Assembly (NCBI RefSeq): GCF_017301635.1
Contig: NZ_CP071091.1
Span: forward strand, 1,145,001 to 1,209,000
DNA length: 64,000 bases
Reading direction: 5' to 3'
Origin: Myxococcus landrumus
Lineage (GTDB): Bacteria > Myxococcota > Myxococcia > Myxococcales > Myxococcaceae
Below are positions 20,889 through 26,741 of the stretch, in pieces. How positions within the stretch are numbered: the stretch's first letter is position 1; each line of letters begins with the position of its first letter. Under the pieces are notes generated by a model. The model made no database searches. It worked only from the letters and a program-made list of their open reading frames with translations, and was not told where the DNA came from. The translations under genes and the position numbers were made by a program.

Positions 20889-21628
20889 GTCCGCCGTATC
20901 CGGTGGAGCTGCTCACGCTGTTTCCGGGGATGGTGTCCGGCTACCTGGGCGCCAGCATCCTCGGCAAGGCCCAGGAGAAGGGGCTGCTCTCCGCGACGGT
21001 GACCGACATCCGCGAGTTCGCGGAGGGAAAGCACCGCGTCACGGATGACGCGCCCTACGGTGGTGGTGCGGGCATGGTGATGAAGCCAGAGCCGCTGGTC
21101 GCCGCCATCGAGGCCGCCCGGGCCCGGCTGCCAGGTGCGAAGGTGCTCCTGATGAGCCCCCGGGGGCAGACCTTCACCCAGCCCCGTGCGCGGGAGCTCG
21201 CGCTCCACGCGGCCGGGCTGATCCTGGTGTGTGGCCGCTACGAGGGCGTGGACGAGCGGGTGATGAGCTCCCTGGATGGTGAACTGTCCCTGGGGGACTT
21301 CGTGCTCACCGGCGGGGAGATCGCCGCGCTCGCGGTGGTGGACGCGGTGGCGCGGCTGGTGCCCGGGGTGCTCGGGAACGTGGCCTCGTCGGTATCCGAA
21401 AGCTTCGAAGAGGGGATGCTGGAGCATCCCCAGTACACCCGGCCGCCTGTCTTTCGAGAGGCCGAGGTGCCCGCGGTCCTCCAGTCCGGGGACCATGCGC
21501 GCATCGCTCGTTGGCGGCGTTGGAAGTCGCTGATGTTGACGCAAGAGCGCCGGCCAGACCTGTTCGCCCGGTTGGAGTTGTCCAAGGCAGACCAGAAACT
21601 GCTGGCTCGCCGGGAGGAAGACCTGTAA
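20885..21628 (+). CDS. trmD: tRNA (guanine37-N1)-methyltransferase
   Basis: A 247-residue SPOUT-class methyltransferase placing m1G at tRNA position 37 to prevent frameshifting. The trefoil-knot motifs are clear: [18 protein letters not shown], the loop [30 protein letters not shown] and [18 protein letters not shown]. The C-terminal helical domain ([16 protein letters not shown]) is present. The GTG start overlaps rimM; rplS follows after 122 bases with its own promoter. Confidence 0.95.
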
Positions 21629-21664
21629 CCCTAGGGGTTCTCAGTGGGTTGGGCCTCAGCGGGC

Positions 21665-21693
21665 TTGTCCGACACCGCTCTCTCTGCTAGTAC
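21665..21693 (+). promoter_or_regulatory. Putative rplS promoter (TTGTCC-17-TAGTAC)
   Basis: -35 TTGTCC at 21665-21670, 17-base spacer, -10 TAGTAC at 21688-21693, 57 bases before rplS. It suggests rplS can be transcribed independently of trmD. Confidence 0.5.
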
Positions 21694-21750
21694 GGCCCGC
21701 TCTTTCACGCGTCCATTGTCGCGTCAGCTTCCGTTTCACTGGAGTCAGTC

Positions 21751-22128
21751 ATGCGTAACAGCGCCATTCAGCACGTCGAGGCGAAGTACCTGCGCCAGGA
21801 CGTCACCTCGTTCCGTCCTGGTGACTCCGTGCGCGTCTTCTGGAAGGTGAAGGAGGGCGAGAAGGAGCGCGTCCAGGCGTTCGAGGGCACCGTCATCCGG
21901 AAGACCTCCGGCAGCCACCGTGCGACCTTCACGGTTCGCAAGATGTCCTTCGGCGTCGGCGTGGAGCGCATCTTCCCGCTGCACAGCCCCCGCTACGAGA
22001 AGATCGAGGTCCTCTCGCGTGGCCGCGTGAACCGCAGCCGCCTGTTCTACCTCCGCGACCTGAAGGGCAAGGCTGCCCGCGTCGACGTGCAGGAAGAGCC
22101 CGAGACCAAGGCCAGCAAGGCCTCCTGA
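21751..22128 (+). CDS. rplS: 50S ribosomal protein L19
   Basis: A 125-residue large-subunit protein at the 30S-50S interface. The sequence RPGDSVRVFWKVKEGEKERV and the following FEGTVIRKTSG and FGVGVERIFPLHSP are L19 hallmarks. CTGGAG precedes the ATG. A terminator lies 38 bases after the stop. Confidence 0.97.
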   Translation: MRNSAIQHVEAKYLRQDVTSFRPGDSVRVFWKVKEGEKERVQAFEGTVIRKTSGSHRATFTVRKMSFGVGVERIFPLHSPRYEKIEVLSRGRVNRSRLFYLRDLKGKAARVDVQEEPETKASKAS

Positions 22129-22144
22129 GTCCCCTGAGTCGTTG

Positions 22145-22160
22145 TTGGCCCATGGGCCAA
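22145..22160. repeat. 16-base perfect palindrome after rplS
   Basis: TTGGCCCATGGGCCAA at 22145-22160, between the rplS stop and the terminator hairpin. It may add to 3'-end structure or be a protein-binding site. Confidence 0.45.
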
Positions 22161-22166
22161 CGCAAG

Positions 22167-22198
22167 AAGGAGCGTCCGATACCGGGCGCTCCTTTTTT
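22167..22198 (+). terminator. Intrinsic terminator of rplS
   Basis: AAGGAGCG (22167-22174) pairs with CGCTCCTT (22187-22194), followed by a T-run to 22198. Classic rho-independent form. Confidence 0.9.
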
Positions 22199-22222
22199 CA
22201 TTCGCGCTAACATGCGTCCGCC

Positions 22223-24118
22223 ATGCAATTCGTCGAGGTCGCCGTCCAGAACGTCCGGGGCTTCAGTCCCGCGGGCCGCTCAGCGCTGAAAGCCGGGTAC
22301 CTCGTCCTCAAGCCGCCCGGTGCCGAGGTGAGTCCGTTCGCGGGGCTCCTGCTCGCGCTCCTCTACTCAGACGGGCGAGGTGGGGATGTCTCCTTCGTGG
22401 CTCCGGGCGCGAAGTCCGGCAAGGCCGCACTCACCTTCCAGGGCGTGGACGGCGTCACGTACCGCGTGCTGCGGGAGCTGGGGGGCTCCGGGACGCTGCA
22501 CCGGGTGAACAAGACAACGCAGCAGCCAGAGCTGGTGTCGTCGGATGCCTCGGAGACGAACCAGTTCCTGCGTGGCCAGGTGGGGCTGCCTCCGCGCACG
22601 GCCTTCGAGCAGCTCTACTGCCTGCAGTTGGGGCAGCTCCCGTCACGCCGGCCGCGCAAGGCCGCGGCCAAGGCGGGGGACCCGAAGACGTCGGGCAAGT
22701 TCCCGTCGCTGGCGTCCGCGTCCGCCGTGGCCCCCGCGGAGGACATCCACTCCGCGGAGGCGAAGGTCCGCGCGCTGGAGGAGGAGCTGGTCTCCGCTCG
22801 CGACGTGGACGCGCTCCAGTTCAAGGTGGATGGGCTGTCCTCGCAGCTCTTCGACGCGGATCAGCGCCTCAAGGGCACCGAGGGAATCAAGGTGGCCATC
22901 CACGAGGCGGAGAACGCGTGGCGGGCCGCTCCGACGCCCCAGACGCTGGGGCTTCCCCAGGACATCCTTCAGCGGGTGCAGCGCTATCCCAAGGCGCTGA
23001 CGAAGCGGGACGATGCGCTGGCCCGGCTCGGGGCGGATCGCGACGCGGACGCGGCGGAGGTTCCGGCCTCGGTGGAGCCGCTGACGAGCAATCAGGGGTT
23101 CTGGGCTGGAATCGCCGTGGGCGTGTTGTTCCTTGGTTTGGGGTTGGGGCTCGGGCTCGGCGTCGACAGCCTCTTCCGCTACCTGGTGCTCCTGGACATT
23201 CCGGCCTTCGGCTTCTCGGCGTTCCTCGCGCTGCGGTACGTGGACGAGCTCCAGCAGACCTCGAAGCGCGGGAGCAAGGAGGGCCGCTTCGACGCGCGCG
23301 AGAAGAAGATCCTCGAGGAGTTCGAGGCCGAGGCCGCGCCCGTGCGCATGGCGCAGAAGGCGCTGGGCGTGGAGAGCCTGGACGAGATTCCCTCGGCGCT
23401 GGAGCGCAAGGAGCTGCTGGCGGCTCGCGTGGTGGAGCTGAAGGACCAGCTCGCGTCCGTGGAGGCGGACCCCGAGTTCGTGGCGGCGTCCACGCAGCGG
23501 CAGGCGCTGAAGGACCAACTGGATGCGCTCAACGCGGAGCTGACGCGCAAGGGCTCCTACGTGCGTGACATGCGCGAGGTGGAGCGCGAGCTGGGGCGCG
23601 TGAAGGAGTCCATCGCGCTGGCGAAGGCGCCGCCTGCTCCGGCGACTGCCCCGGACGGGACGGCCGCACCCGCGGAGCCGTTGGAAGATCCCTCTCCCGC
23701 GCTCCTGTCGCAGGCGGCGGATGTGTTCACCACGGATGTGCTCAGCGTGCAGGGGCTCCTCAAGGAGCGCTGTGTCCAGTACCTGACGGCGCTGACGGAC
23801 CGCCGCTACCAGGGCGTCGAGTGGGACAAGGAGGGCAGGGCCTTCGCGCTCACGGGCGGCCGGCGAGTGCCCGTGGGAGAGCTGCCACCCAAGGACCTGG
23901 ACCTGTACTACCTGGCCCTGCGGATGACGGTGGTGGAGAAGGCGAGCGCGCGAGTGAAGCGCCCCTTCATCCTGGAGGACGTCTTCGTCGGCGTGGAAGA
24001 GGTGAAGCTGCCGCTCATCGCCCGCATGCTGAAGCACCTGGGCACGCTCACGCAGGTGCTGCACGTCACCCCGCACGCGGGCTTCGCGCAGATGTCGGAC
24101 GGCACGGTTAACGTGTAG
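22223..24118 (+). CDS. SMC/YhaN-like coiled-coil membrane protein lacking a P-loop
   Basis: A 631-residue protein with the architecture of YhaN/SMC-type ABC ATPases: an N-terminal head half, coiled coil, a hydrophobic hairpin (about residues 290-340, GVLFLGLGLGLGLG then LVLLDIPAFGFSAFLAL), more coiled coil, and a C-terminal head half. The position that should hold the Walker A reads LKPPGAEVSPFAGLLLALL, with no GK[ST]. The signature region reads GELPPKDLDLYYLALRM instead of LSxGxxxxLYLALR, and the Walker-B-like strand is PFILEDVF. ATP hydrolysis is therefore unlikely. It probably shares an operon with yraN and rsmI. A structural or regulatory membrane role is inference; homology to this class is from pattern only. 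Confidence 0.6.
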   Translation: MQFVEVAVQNVRGFSPAGRSALKAGYLVLKPPGAEVSPFAGLLLALLYSDGRGGDVSFVAPGAKSGKAALTFQGVDGVTYRVLRELGGSGTLHRVNKTTQQPELVSSDASETNQFLRGQVGLPPRTAFEQLYCLQLGQLPSRRPRKAAAKAGDPKTSGKFPSLASASAVAPAEDIHSAEAKVRALEEELVSARDVDALQFKVDGLSSQLFDADQRLKGTEGIKVAIHEAENAWRAAPTPQTLGLPQDILQRVQRYPKALTKRDDALARLGADRDADAAEVPASVEPLTSNQGFWAGIAVGVLFLGLGLGLGLGVDSLFRYLVLLDIPAFGFSAFLALRYVDELQQTSKRGSKEGRFDAREKKILEEFEAEAAPVRMAQKALGVESLDEIPSALERKELLAARVVELKDQLASVEADPEFVAASTQRQALKDQLDALNAELTRKGSYVRDMREVERELGRVKESIALAKAPPAPATAPDGTAAPAEPLEDPSPALLSQAADVFTTDVLSVQGLLKERCVQYLTALTDRRYQGVEWDKEGRAFALTGGRRVPVGELPPKDLDLYYLALRMTVVEKASARVKRPFILEDVFVGVEEVKLPLIARMLKHLGTLTQVLHVTPHAGFAQMSDGTVNV

Positions 24119-24122
24119 TCCG

Positions 24123-24539
24123 ATGATGGACGTCGTCCTCCGTGGGGAGGACGTGCGGGGGTGGGTGGTGGCGCGTGGGGAGCGGCGGGCGGTGGGAGAT
24201 GAGGCGGAGGCGTTGGCGGTCCGGTACCTGGAGGCGCAAGGGTGGCGGGTGAGGGCGAGGAACTGGCCGTGCCGCTACGGCGAGCTGGATGTGGTGGTGG
24301 AGCGGGAGGAGCTGGTGTGCTTCGTCGAGGTGCGCATGCGCTCCTCGGCGGTGTGGGGAGACCCGGCGCACACGGTGTCCTTCGCGAAGCAGCGTCGGGT
24401 GGTGAAGGCGGCGCTGCACTATCTCTTCGCCCATGAGCTGCATGGGCGGATGATTCGTTTCGATGTCGTGTCGGTGGTGGGGCGCGGTGAGCGCGCCACC
24501 GTGGAGCACATTCCCGGCGCCTTCGATGCGGGCATGTAA
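24123..24539 (+). CDS. YraN/UPF0102 family protein
   Basis: A 138-residue protein with the UPF0102 core: GDEAEALAVRYLEAQGWRV, then RYGELDVVVERE and CFVEVRMRSS. The pattern E-x-D...E-V-R resembles the restriction-endonuclease-like fold, and the family is often called a putative Holliday-junction-resolvase-like protein; its true role is not settled. The start is ATG 24123 or the adjacent ATG 24126. It follows the SMC-like gene by four bases and precedes rsmI by nine. Linkage of yraN with rsmI is common in bacteria. Confidence 0.85.
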   Translation: MMDVVLRGEDVRGWVVARGERRAVGDEAEALAVRYLEAQGWRVRARNWPCRYGELDVVVEREELVCFVEVRMRSSAVWGDPAHTVSFAKQRRVVKAALHYLFAHELHGRMIRFDVVSVVGRGERATVEHIPGAFDAGM

Positions 24540-24548
24540 GGGGAAGGC

Positions 24549-25379
24549 ATGGCTGGAACGCTGTACCTGGTGGCCACGCCCATCGGGAACCTGGGTGACA
24601 TTTCAGCGCGCGCGCTCGAGACGCTTCGAGCCGTGGGCTTCATTGCTTGCGAGGACACGCGGCATTCCCGCGTGCTGCTCGACCACTTCGGAATTGGCGG
24701 AAAGGACCTGGTGAGCCTCCCTGCCTTCGCCGAAGGGCAGCGGGCCGGACGCATCCTGGACCGGATTGCCGGCGGCGACGACTGTGCGCTCATCACGGAC
24801 GCGGGCAGTCCGGCCATCAGCGACCCGGGGGAGCGGTTGGTGGCGGAGGCGCTCGAGCGGGGCCTCACCGTGGTCCCCGTGCCTGGGGCGACGGCGCTGA
24901 TTTCAGCGCTCAGTGCCTCGGGGCTTCCCACGGGCCGCTTCCACTTCCTGGGCTTTCTTCCGCGCAAGGGCCCCGAGCGAAGGGCCATGCTCGAGGAGGT
25001 GGCCTCGCTGTCCGCGACGCTGGTGCTCTACGAGTCGCCCCGGCGCCTGGGCGAGACGCTCCAGGACCTCCTGGAGGCCTGGGGTGAGCGCAGGGGCTGT
25101 GTGGCCCGGGAGCTGACGAAGCTGCACGAGGAGTTCGTCCGAGGCTCGCTGACGGAGCTGTCGGCGCGCTACGCGACGGAAGAGGCGCGCGGCGAGGTCG
25201 TGGTGATGGTGGAGGGGCGCACCGGCGAGCGGCGCTGGTCCGAGGAGGAGCTGCGGCGCGCGCTGGAGGAGGGATTGGCTCGGGGCGAGAAGCTCAAGCC
25301 GCTGAGTACCGAGCTGGCGCGACGTGCGGGCTGGTCGGGACAGGATGTCTACCGACTCGGGCTGTCGCTGAAGCGTTGA
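24549..25379 (+). CDS. rsmI: 16S rRNA (cytidine1402-2'-O)-methyltransferase RsmI
   Basis: A 276-residue tetrapyrrole-methylase-fold enzyme. LYLVATPIGNLGDISARALE opens the protein; CEDTRHSRVLLDHFG, ALITDAGSPAISDPGERLV and VPGATALISALSASGLPT are diagnostic. It methylates the ribose of C1402 in 16S rRNA. AGGGGAAGGC precedes the ATG. It is the last gene of the unit starting with the SMC-like gene and converges with an outer-membrane-protein gene across a bidirectional terminator. Confidence 0.95.
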   Translation: MAGTLYLVATPIGNLGDISARALETLRAVGFIACEDTRHSRVLLDHFGIGGKDLVSLPAFAEGQRAGRILDRIAGGDDCALITDAGSPAISDPGERLVAEALERGLTVVPVPGATALISALSASGLPTGRFHFLGFLPRKGPERRAMLEEVASLSATLVLYESPRRLGETLQDLLEAWGERRGCVARELTKLHEEFVRGSLTELSARYATEEARGEVVVMVEGRTGERRWSEEELRRALEEGLARGEKLKPLSTELARRAGWSGQDVYRLGLSLKR

Positions 25380-25393
25380 GGCTGGGAGGCGGA

Positions 25394-25429
25394 GTCAGGA
25401 GACGTGCCGAGGTGGCCACGTCTCCTGAC
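25394..25429. terminator. Bidirectional terminator between rsmI and the outer-membrane-protein gene
   Basis: GTCAGGAGACGTG (25394-25406) and CACGTCTCCTGAC (25417-25429) form a perfect 13-base stem with a 10-base loop, between two convergent genes. Confidence 0.8.
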
Positions 25430-25445
25430 GGGGGGCTGCCTGGCG

Positions 25446-26741
25446 CTAGAAGCTGAAGGTCGCGCTCAGGTCGAAGCGGAACGTCGTGCTGCCGATAGCG
25501 CGGAAGCGGCGGGACACCAGGTCATAGCGCCAGTCGAACGAGGGGTTGAGCTCGGGCGAGCCTGGCGCGTCGTTGATCTCCCCGTCACCGTCGAGGTCCT
25601 TGCCGAGCTCCTCGTTCGTGAGCACGTGGTCCGTGTTGTAGAGGAACGTGCCGGACGCGCGAATCTGGAAGGACTCGGCCGCGCTGGCGGTGACGCCCAT
25701 CATGCCGCCGATCTGGAAGTACTCGTCGGAGGTGAGCAGCTTGCGCAGCGCCGCGCTCAGCTCGTTGTTGTACCGGCCCGAGCCCACGTAGTTGCCGATG
25801 GCGCGCAGGTCGAGGGTGAACTTCTGGTGCTTCTCCGGCCGGTTGAACGGCACCAGCTCCACGCCGGCGAGCATGCCCACCATCTCCGGCGCCTTGATGC
25901 CCGTCTCCTTGCGATTCCACGGGCCTTCGCCGCAGTTGCCAGGGGCGCCCAGGTTGGGCGGCGTGGCGTCGCGCTGGTCGCAGTTCGAGTAGATGCCCGG
26001 GCCTCGCACGGGGATGGTGTAGCTGGCCTTGAAGTACGGCTCAGCCGCGCCCATGCGCCGGGAGAACGACGTGTAGATTTGATACTTGTGGATGCGGTCG
26101 CCGATGTTGCCGCGCTCATCCGAGTTCGTGGTGTCCACGCTCGGGTCCCTCACCTTCGCGGTGGGAGCCTCGTAGTCGATGCCGACAATCCACGTGGGCT
26201 TGGTGTCGTCCTTCTCCTGGTTGAAGAAGGCGTATGCGAGGCCGAAGTGGAGGTTTCCCAGTCCGCCGCGGAAGCTCTCCTGCGGCACGCCGAAGAGCGG
26301 GGCGCTGTTGCCCGGATTGCCGAGGCAGTTCGGGATGAGGCTGCCATCCGCGTTGATGCAGTTGTTGGTGATGGTGGACGTCGCCCGCGACGACTGGGAC
26401 GTGAAGTTCCACTCCTCGTTCTGCTGGAACACGAGGGGGAGCTTGAAGGACAGCTCCAGGTCCCGGTAGAGGCCGATGGCCATCCGCAGGTTGAGCCGCG
26501 CGTCGACGCCCTTGTACCAGAGCTCCGCGACGTCACCCGTCATCCCGGGCTCGGCGTTGGTGGAGAGCTGCTCGCGGACAATCTTCGCGCGAGTCTGGGT
26601 GCGCTCGAACCCGACGTCGATGAACAGGTCGAACGGGTCATCGTCCTCGAGCGCCGAGGCGATCCGGGTGATATCCGCCGCGCTGGCGACGAACGGTACG
26701 CCCAGTGACAGGGCGGCGAGTACGGCGCGAAGCCTGTGCAT
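25446..26741 (-). CDS. Putative outer-membrane beta-barrel protein
   Basis: A 431-residue exported protein. The signal peptide MHRLRAVLAALSLGVPFVASA ends at a typical A-x-A site. The mature part is rich in alternating hydrophobic/polar strands with aromatic residues and ends in SATFSF, whose terminal Phe is typical of BAM-assembled barrels. Four cysteines lie in long, probably surface-exposed loops. No specific porin family is recognised. GGAGG is four bases before the ATG at 26741. It lies downstream of the M23 peptidase gene on the same strand, 96 bases away, and may be co-transcribed. Function unknown. Confidence 0.65.
   Translation of the reverse strand: MHRLRAVLAALSLGVPFVASAADITRIASALEDDDPFDLFIDVGFERTQTRAKIVREQLSTNAEPGMTGDVAELWYKGVDARLNLRMAIGLYRDLELSFKLPLVFQQNEEWNFTSQSSRATSTITNNCINADGSLIPNCLGNPGNSAPLFGVPQESFRGGLGNLHFGLAYAFFNQEKDDTKPTWIVGIDYEAPTAKVRDPSVDTTNSDERGNIGDRIHKYQIYTSFSRRMGAAEPYFKASYTIPVRGPGIYSNCDQRDATPPNLGAPGNCGEGPWNRKETGIKAPEMVGMLAGVELVPFNRPEKHQKFTLDLRAIGNYVGSGRYNNELSAALRKLLTSDEYFQIGGMMGVTASAAESFQIRASGTFLYNTDHVLTNEELGKDLDGDGEINDAPGSPELNPSFDWRYDLVSRRFRAIGSTTFRFDLSATFSF

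Follow-up and report, generated by a model that had tools for sequence, protein, structure and literature searches.

Gene X of Myxococcus landrumus encodes a protein in which the P-loop and the signature motif of its Rad50-like relatives have been lost, and we think it rather likely that this protein serves as a membrane-tethered scaffold independent of nucleotides, with a YhaN-like ATPase as its ancestor. The gene lies in the window, by which we mean the whole stretch of 64,000 nucleotides that was analysed, from a genome of 10.37 Mb in a single contig, and close homologues are present in Myxococcus species. A membrane-bound scaffold or sensor had already been suggested in an earlier note made from the letters of this DNA, and from the evidence laid out here we infer a role of that kind as well. 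Along the protein, the order is head, coiled coil, membrane hairpin, coiled coil and head, with the following parts (f11 stands for nine genomes of the same phylum, all nine of which were examined):

22223..24118, forward strand: gene X, an open reading frame with an ATG start for a 631-aa degenerate YhaN/Rad50-like membrane protein, member of a homologue family
22223..22657, forward strand: N-terminal head lobe (aa 1-145), a collinear weak match to the Rad50 N lobe (13.4 bits on its own), where f11 orthologues match SMC_N/AAA_23
22313..22339, forward strand: former Walker A slot PPGAEVSPF (aa 31-39), aligned to GxGKS/T of the f11 orthologues
22739..23077, forward strand: coiled coil 1 (aa 173-285), predicted helices 175-235 and 248-279
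23078..23251, forward strand: membrane hairpin region (aa 286-343), hydrophobic segments, with helices 291-310, 316-322 and the start of 325-381
23252..23632, forward strand: coiled coil 2 (aa 344-470), predicted helices
23714..24115, forward strand: C-terminal head lobe (aa 498-631), Rad50 match over aa ~507-630, and YhaN match
23882..23896, forward strand: former signature motif LPPKD (aa 554-558), aligned to LSRGT of YhaN
23966..23986, forward strand: altered Walker B FILEDVF (aa 582-588), aligned to LIVDDVL of YhaN and LLLDDPF of f11

This order of parts, as read in the earlier note, is backed by both the predicted secondary structure, with helices at residues 175-235, 248-279, 291-310, 316-322, 325-381, 386-414, 417-443 and 450-468, and the mid-protein hydrophobic stretches. 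Two such segments are detected by hydropathy in 57 of 81 distinct homologues, the X of the window included, and together with the predicted helices they place a membrane stretch inside the coiled coil, which is one criterion for a YhaN/AAA_27 protein. Three homologues, L106, L107 and L108 (families f13 and f17), are longer, with matched stretches of 752, 1029 and 851 aa. An AlphaFold model, for which the input consisted of 12 close sequences with distant homologues left out, has a mean pLDDT of 62.1, with the coiled coils mostly at 70-90 and much of both heads below 60. Searching with this whole-protein model, Foldseek returned as best matches chains of the Mre11-Rad50-Nbs1 complex (7zr1_C, E 8.1e-7; also 3.5e-6), which are presumably Rad50, the top alignment having an rmsd of 65 and a TM of about 0.15. 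As such, the modelling supports the architecture of X rather than any detail of its fold, and given the weak heads and the low TM the Rad50-like head fold is a putative one.

Taken as a single protein, X stays below the cut-off of every Pfam and NCBIfam model, which made family profiles necessary. Among the sequences of the PDB, phmmer already finds a Rad50 match for X alone (residues 511-624, E 0.0026), and a profile of 42 homologues matches Rad50 heads at E 1.5e-12, with the N and C lobes collinear. When the profile is built from 34 P-loop-less members, Rad50 is found at E 1.4e-10; this match is carried by the C lobe, the two displayed alignments giving the N lobe just 1.6 and 7.9 bits. Rad50/SMC head homology is therefore present at both ends of X, strong in the C lobe and weak but collinear in the N lobe. 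Furthermore, when the X profile is compared with one built from nine f1 YhaN proteins, the C head matches at E 6.6e-18, and the match still reaches E 4.3e-13 if just the P-loop-less X members are used. Against single sequences the X family scores 84.8 for the YhaN of the window's genome and 42.8 and 34.7 for the E. coli proteins RecN and SbcC, an uneven ranking in that only YhaN was taken from X's own genome. Judged by such scores, YhaN is the nearest kin of X among the families compared. X itself has no AAA_27 match, and the curated cut-off of that model is not reached by its relatives either, the best of the 42 homologues attaining E 0.0037 and 17.3 bits against a cut-off of 22, while all eight f11 X proteins scanned match SMC_N and AAA_23 at E <= 0.1. 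A plasmid search with the single X yielded only four records, all annotated as YhaN family protein (E 8e-4, 18% of X). The descent from a DNA/RNA-handling ATPase that the earlier note had supposed is thus upheld by these profile searches, for which it had called, and which found a relation to SMC-type ATPases where the lack of one would have spoken against it; the P-loop of the f11 orthologues points the same way.

Matches to X at E <= 0.001 were found by single-protein search in 166 of 195 genomes of the phylum, a number that is an upper bound at that sensitivity, because at least one match, that in G014, is a paralogue of YhaN type with a motif like LSxG. In a profile search of 32 selected genomes 15 matched, three of them new (G010, G142 and G170) and weak; the match in G010, a P-loop protein, looks like RecN. 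X is absent from some small genomes (f19, f20, f22 and f23) but also from larger ones, e.g. f18 and f26. The position of the gene is well conserved, with rplS preceding X in 50 of 55 loci (41/44 plus 9/11 further ones, f11 included); the exceptions are L051, L059 and L061, with none in the available stretch, and L083 and L106 of the further set. The gap between both genes, measurable in 40 of 42 loci, amounts to -4 to 230 nt. By this shared place, the X genes of f11 are orthologous to the P-loop-less ones. Between these two groups mean identity is highest in the hairpin (0.33), followed by the heads (0.28), the coiled coils (0.21-0.24) and the linkers (0.16-0.17). For nine chosen Myxococcus pairs, the dN/dS of the whole gene is 0.06-0.27, which along with the wide distribution rejects a pseudogene. 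As far as these comparisons reach, X is a vertically kept orthologous family under purifying selection.

The ATP site was compared in 57 representatives, being the 87 X loci minus 30 near-copies in f1. All nine f11 members carry GxGK[S/T], and outside f11 the Walker A lysine is found in none of the 48 representatives, the slot itself being gapped in many P-loop-less lineages. The signature is missing more widely, SxG occurring in 0/57 representatives, f11 included. The readings of PPGAEVSPF as the Walker A slot and of LPPKD as the replacement of LSxG could both be confirmed, the former by its alignment with GxGKS/T of f11 and the latter by that with LSRGT of YhaN. Walker B, given as FILEDVF, is indeed altered where it aligns with LIVDDVL, but it is still acidic. 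Asked whether the loss is shared by relatives, the alignment answers with a lysine missing in 48/48 outside f11, which rules out a sequencing error as its cause. Intact P-loops, which the earlier note would have taken as refutation if combined with such an error, do exist in orthologues, only in f11 and at the same place after rplS; they argue for an ATPase ancestor and for a real loss in X. With Walker A and signature gone outside f11, canonical ATP binding should no longer be possible for X, and the absence of the P-loop from almost every lineage examined points to a protein that functions without ATP today.

Since both acidic residues of Walker B persist in 32 of the 48 representatives outside f11 (the first in 41, the second in 36), a role for nucleotide or metal may survive. 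X could then act as a non-canonical switch that binds either ligand by means of its altered Walker B together with residues specific to the family, among which the D of LPPxDxD is kept in 39 of 48 P-loop-less representatives. We regard this as unlikely, because the very lysine of Walker A is gone in all 48 and its slot is gapped in many lineages.

As the P-loop is ancestral in the Rad50/SMC superfamily, f11 is read as having kept it and the others as having lost it, whether once or several times, from an ATPase ancestor. In a tree of X made by a quick method, f11 forms one clade (100*) beside f10. A tree of the neighbour genes, rooted on E. coli alone and with five loci of fewer than two marker genes dropped, nests f11 in such a way that at least four losses of the P-loop would be needed, some of the nesting branches being weak (83/18, 96/62). 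An arrangement with a single loss is 12.5 log units worse, but it is not rejected (AU p 0.061). It is a tentative idea, and one we doubt more than we believe, that the ATPase was dismantled stepwise beside rplS, with the signature going first (gone in 57/57) and the P-loop later, independently at least four times by the best tree of the neighbour genes, leaving an ATP-independent membrane tether.

Around X the order of genes in the window is rplS, X, yraN and rsmI, with rplS ending 94 nt before X:

21751..22128, forward strand: rplS, conserved upstream neighbour
22166..22200, forward strand: intrinsic-terminator-like hairpin with T run after rplS, fold -23.1 kcal/mol
22208..22213, forward strand: TAACAT, 9 nt before the ATG of X, candidate -10 box of a leaderless promoter
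24123..24539, forward strand: yraN (UPF0102), 4 nt after X, counted to the first yraN ATG
24549..25379, forward strand: rsmI

Neighbours were named from their translations; rplS, trmD, rimM and rsmI were checked against annotated E. coli genes, and yraN in 13 other genomes by PF02021. By our own search criterion, 12 of 16 f1 loci have a terminator-like hairpin between rplS and X, as does 1 of 31 others; in the window it is also seen by folding. Moreover, 26 of 47 loci carry TAnnnT 7-11 nt upstream of the X start codon (16/16 in f1, 5/5 in f3, 5 others, 0/8 in f11), against a background farther upstream of about 0.07 per position on average, with related loci counted separately. A consensus scan of 21600-25600 listed neither a promoter-like site nor the rplS hairpin, and the promoter reading draws on the position and conservation of TAnnnT only. 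From these we predict that the transcript of X is leaderless in f1 and f3 and that it probably runs on into yraN and rsmI; the X of Myxococcus is probably transcribed from a start of its own. Of nine loci in f2, f4, f6 and f31, eight have a gap between rplS and X of -4 to 36 nt and one, L052, a gap of 69 nt, spacing that suggests that X is co-transcribed with rplS there. The placement of X in a translation operon, as earlier proposed, therefore holds for the well-conserved adjacency to rplS, but an operon with rplS is doubtful in this genome.

YraN has a nuclease-like fold, and X might be its membrane partner, the two forming a stripped-down analogue of Rad50 with its nuclease. In favour of this, yraN comes after X in the same orientation in 31 of the 36 non-f11 loci, at 4 nt in the window. 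Among 11 further loci it was seen in 3. But it was not seen adjoining X in the f10 and f17 loci examined, and in f11 the two genes share a contig in 6 of 9 genomes and are on opposite strands in every one of these. The closeness of yraN and rsmI, furthermore, is also found in E. coli K-12, with lpoA between them. In Hyalangium versicolor (L041), the yraN frame starts about 1.9 kb after X. We give such a partnership a small chance, although it is compatible with the scaffold that we prefer.

YhaN itself is partnered by the nuclease YhaO. The genome of X also encodes a separate pair resembling these two, its motifs intact (L114:1481-5994; G000:C1:6755980-6760493), consisting of an Mre11/YhaO-like frame and a 1087-aa AAA_27 protein with P-loop, LSRGTREQ and LIVDD; we take these to be YhaO and YhaN from the AAA_27 match. 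This YhaN has one mid-protein hydrophobic segment over threshold (486-504), and it shares with X the succession of N head, coiled coil, mid-protein hydrophobic stretch, coiled coil and C head. At 631 aa, X is much shorter, and it differs in lacking Walker A, the LSRG signature and a YhaO-like neighbour, no YhaO-like frame being found at E <= 1 in the limited flanks of 87 X loci. Because its nearest kin found, with the same architecture, thus has an intact copy in the same genome, X could be the inactive half of a heterodimer with the active YhaN and regulate that nuclease complex at the membrane. We think this quite improbable. Of 97 genomes sampled from the phylum, no more than 34 match this YhaN (E <= 0.001), one or more of them (G008) through X itself, a sparseness that makes an obligate partnership unlikely; in f3, none of nine sampled genomes has a match while all nine have X, though a single-sequence search can miss a divergent YhaN, and the X loci lack a YhaO-like frame in their flanks. 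As for the notion that the likeness to Rad50 is an artefact of the coiled coil and X an unrelated membrane protein, it can appeal to the single sequence having no Pfam match above cut-off, yet it has next to no chance, as the matches sit on the C-terminal head rather than the coiled coil, and the true P-loop of the orthologues together with the Rad50 profile match refutes it unless the f11 genes are not orthologous.

With Rad50/SbcC, X shares the split ABC head at both ends of the coiled coil; it differs by having no P-loop (f11 excepted) and no YhaO/Mre11-like frame in its loci, and its membrane stretch sits where Rad50 carries its hook. RecN and SMC are distant kin by their heads, the RecN match being weaker than that to YhaN, and we know of no membrane segment in either family.

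How might the scaffold that we favour work? The ancestor of X would have been a Rad50/SMC ABC ATPase of YhaN-like type, anchored in the membrane, and X itself, having no canonical ATP binding outside f11, would have become constitutive. Its two half-heads, presumably cytoplasmic, may fold together at the tip of the coiled coil, while the hairpin would thread the coiled coil into the inner membrane. Two chains probably pair via their heads or coiled coils, and such a pair could hold a partner at the membrane, for which DNA, the ribosome or a protein such as YraN are candidates.

A literature search, judged by title or the start of the abstract, gave no paper recognisable as being on the X family, and a widespread gene that has no family model hereby gains an ancestry and a mechanism that can be put to the test. 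What usually defines SMC/Rad50 proteins is the ATP-driven engagement of their heads. If the stepwise loss were true, X would to our knowledge be the first SMC-type protein to have turned into a membrane tether that needs no ATP, and in f11 a relative with the P-loop is still alive for comparison. At the least, a conserved syntenic family that runs from P-loop-bearing to P-loop-free members allows us to ask what such a scaffold does without ATP.
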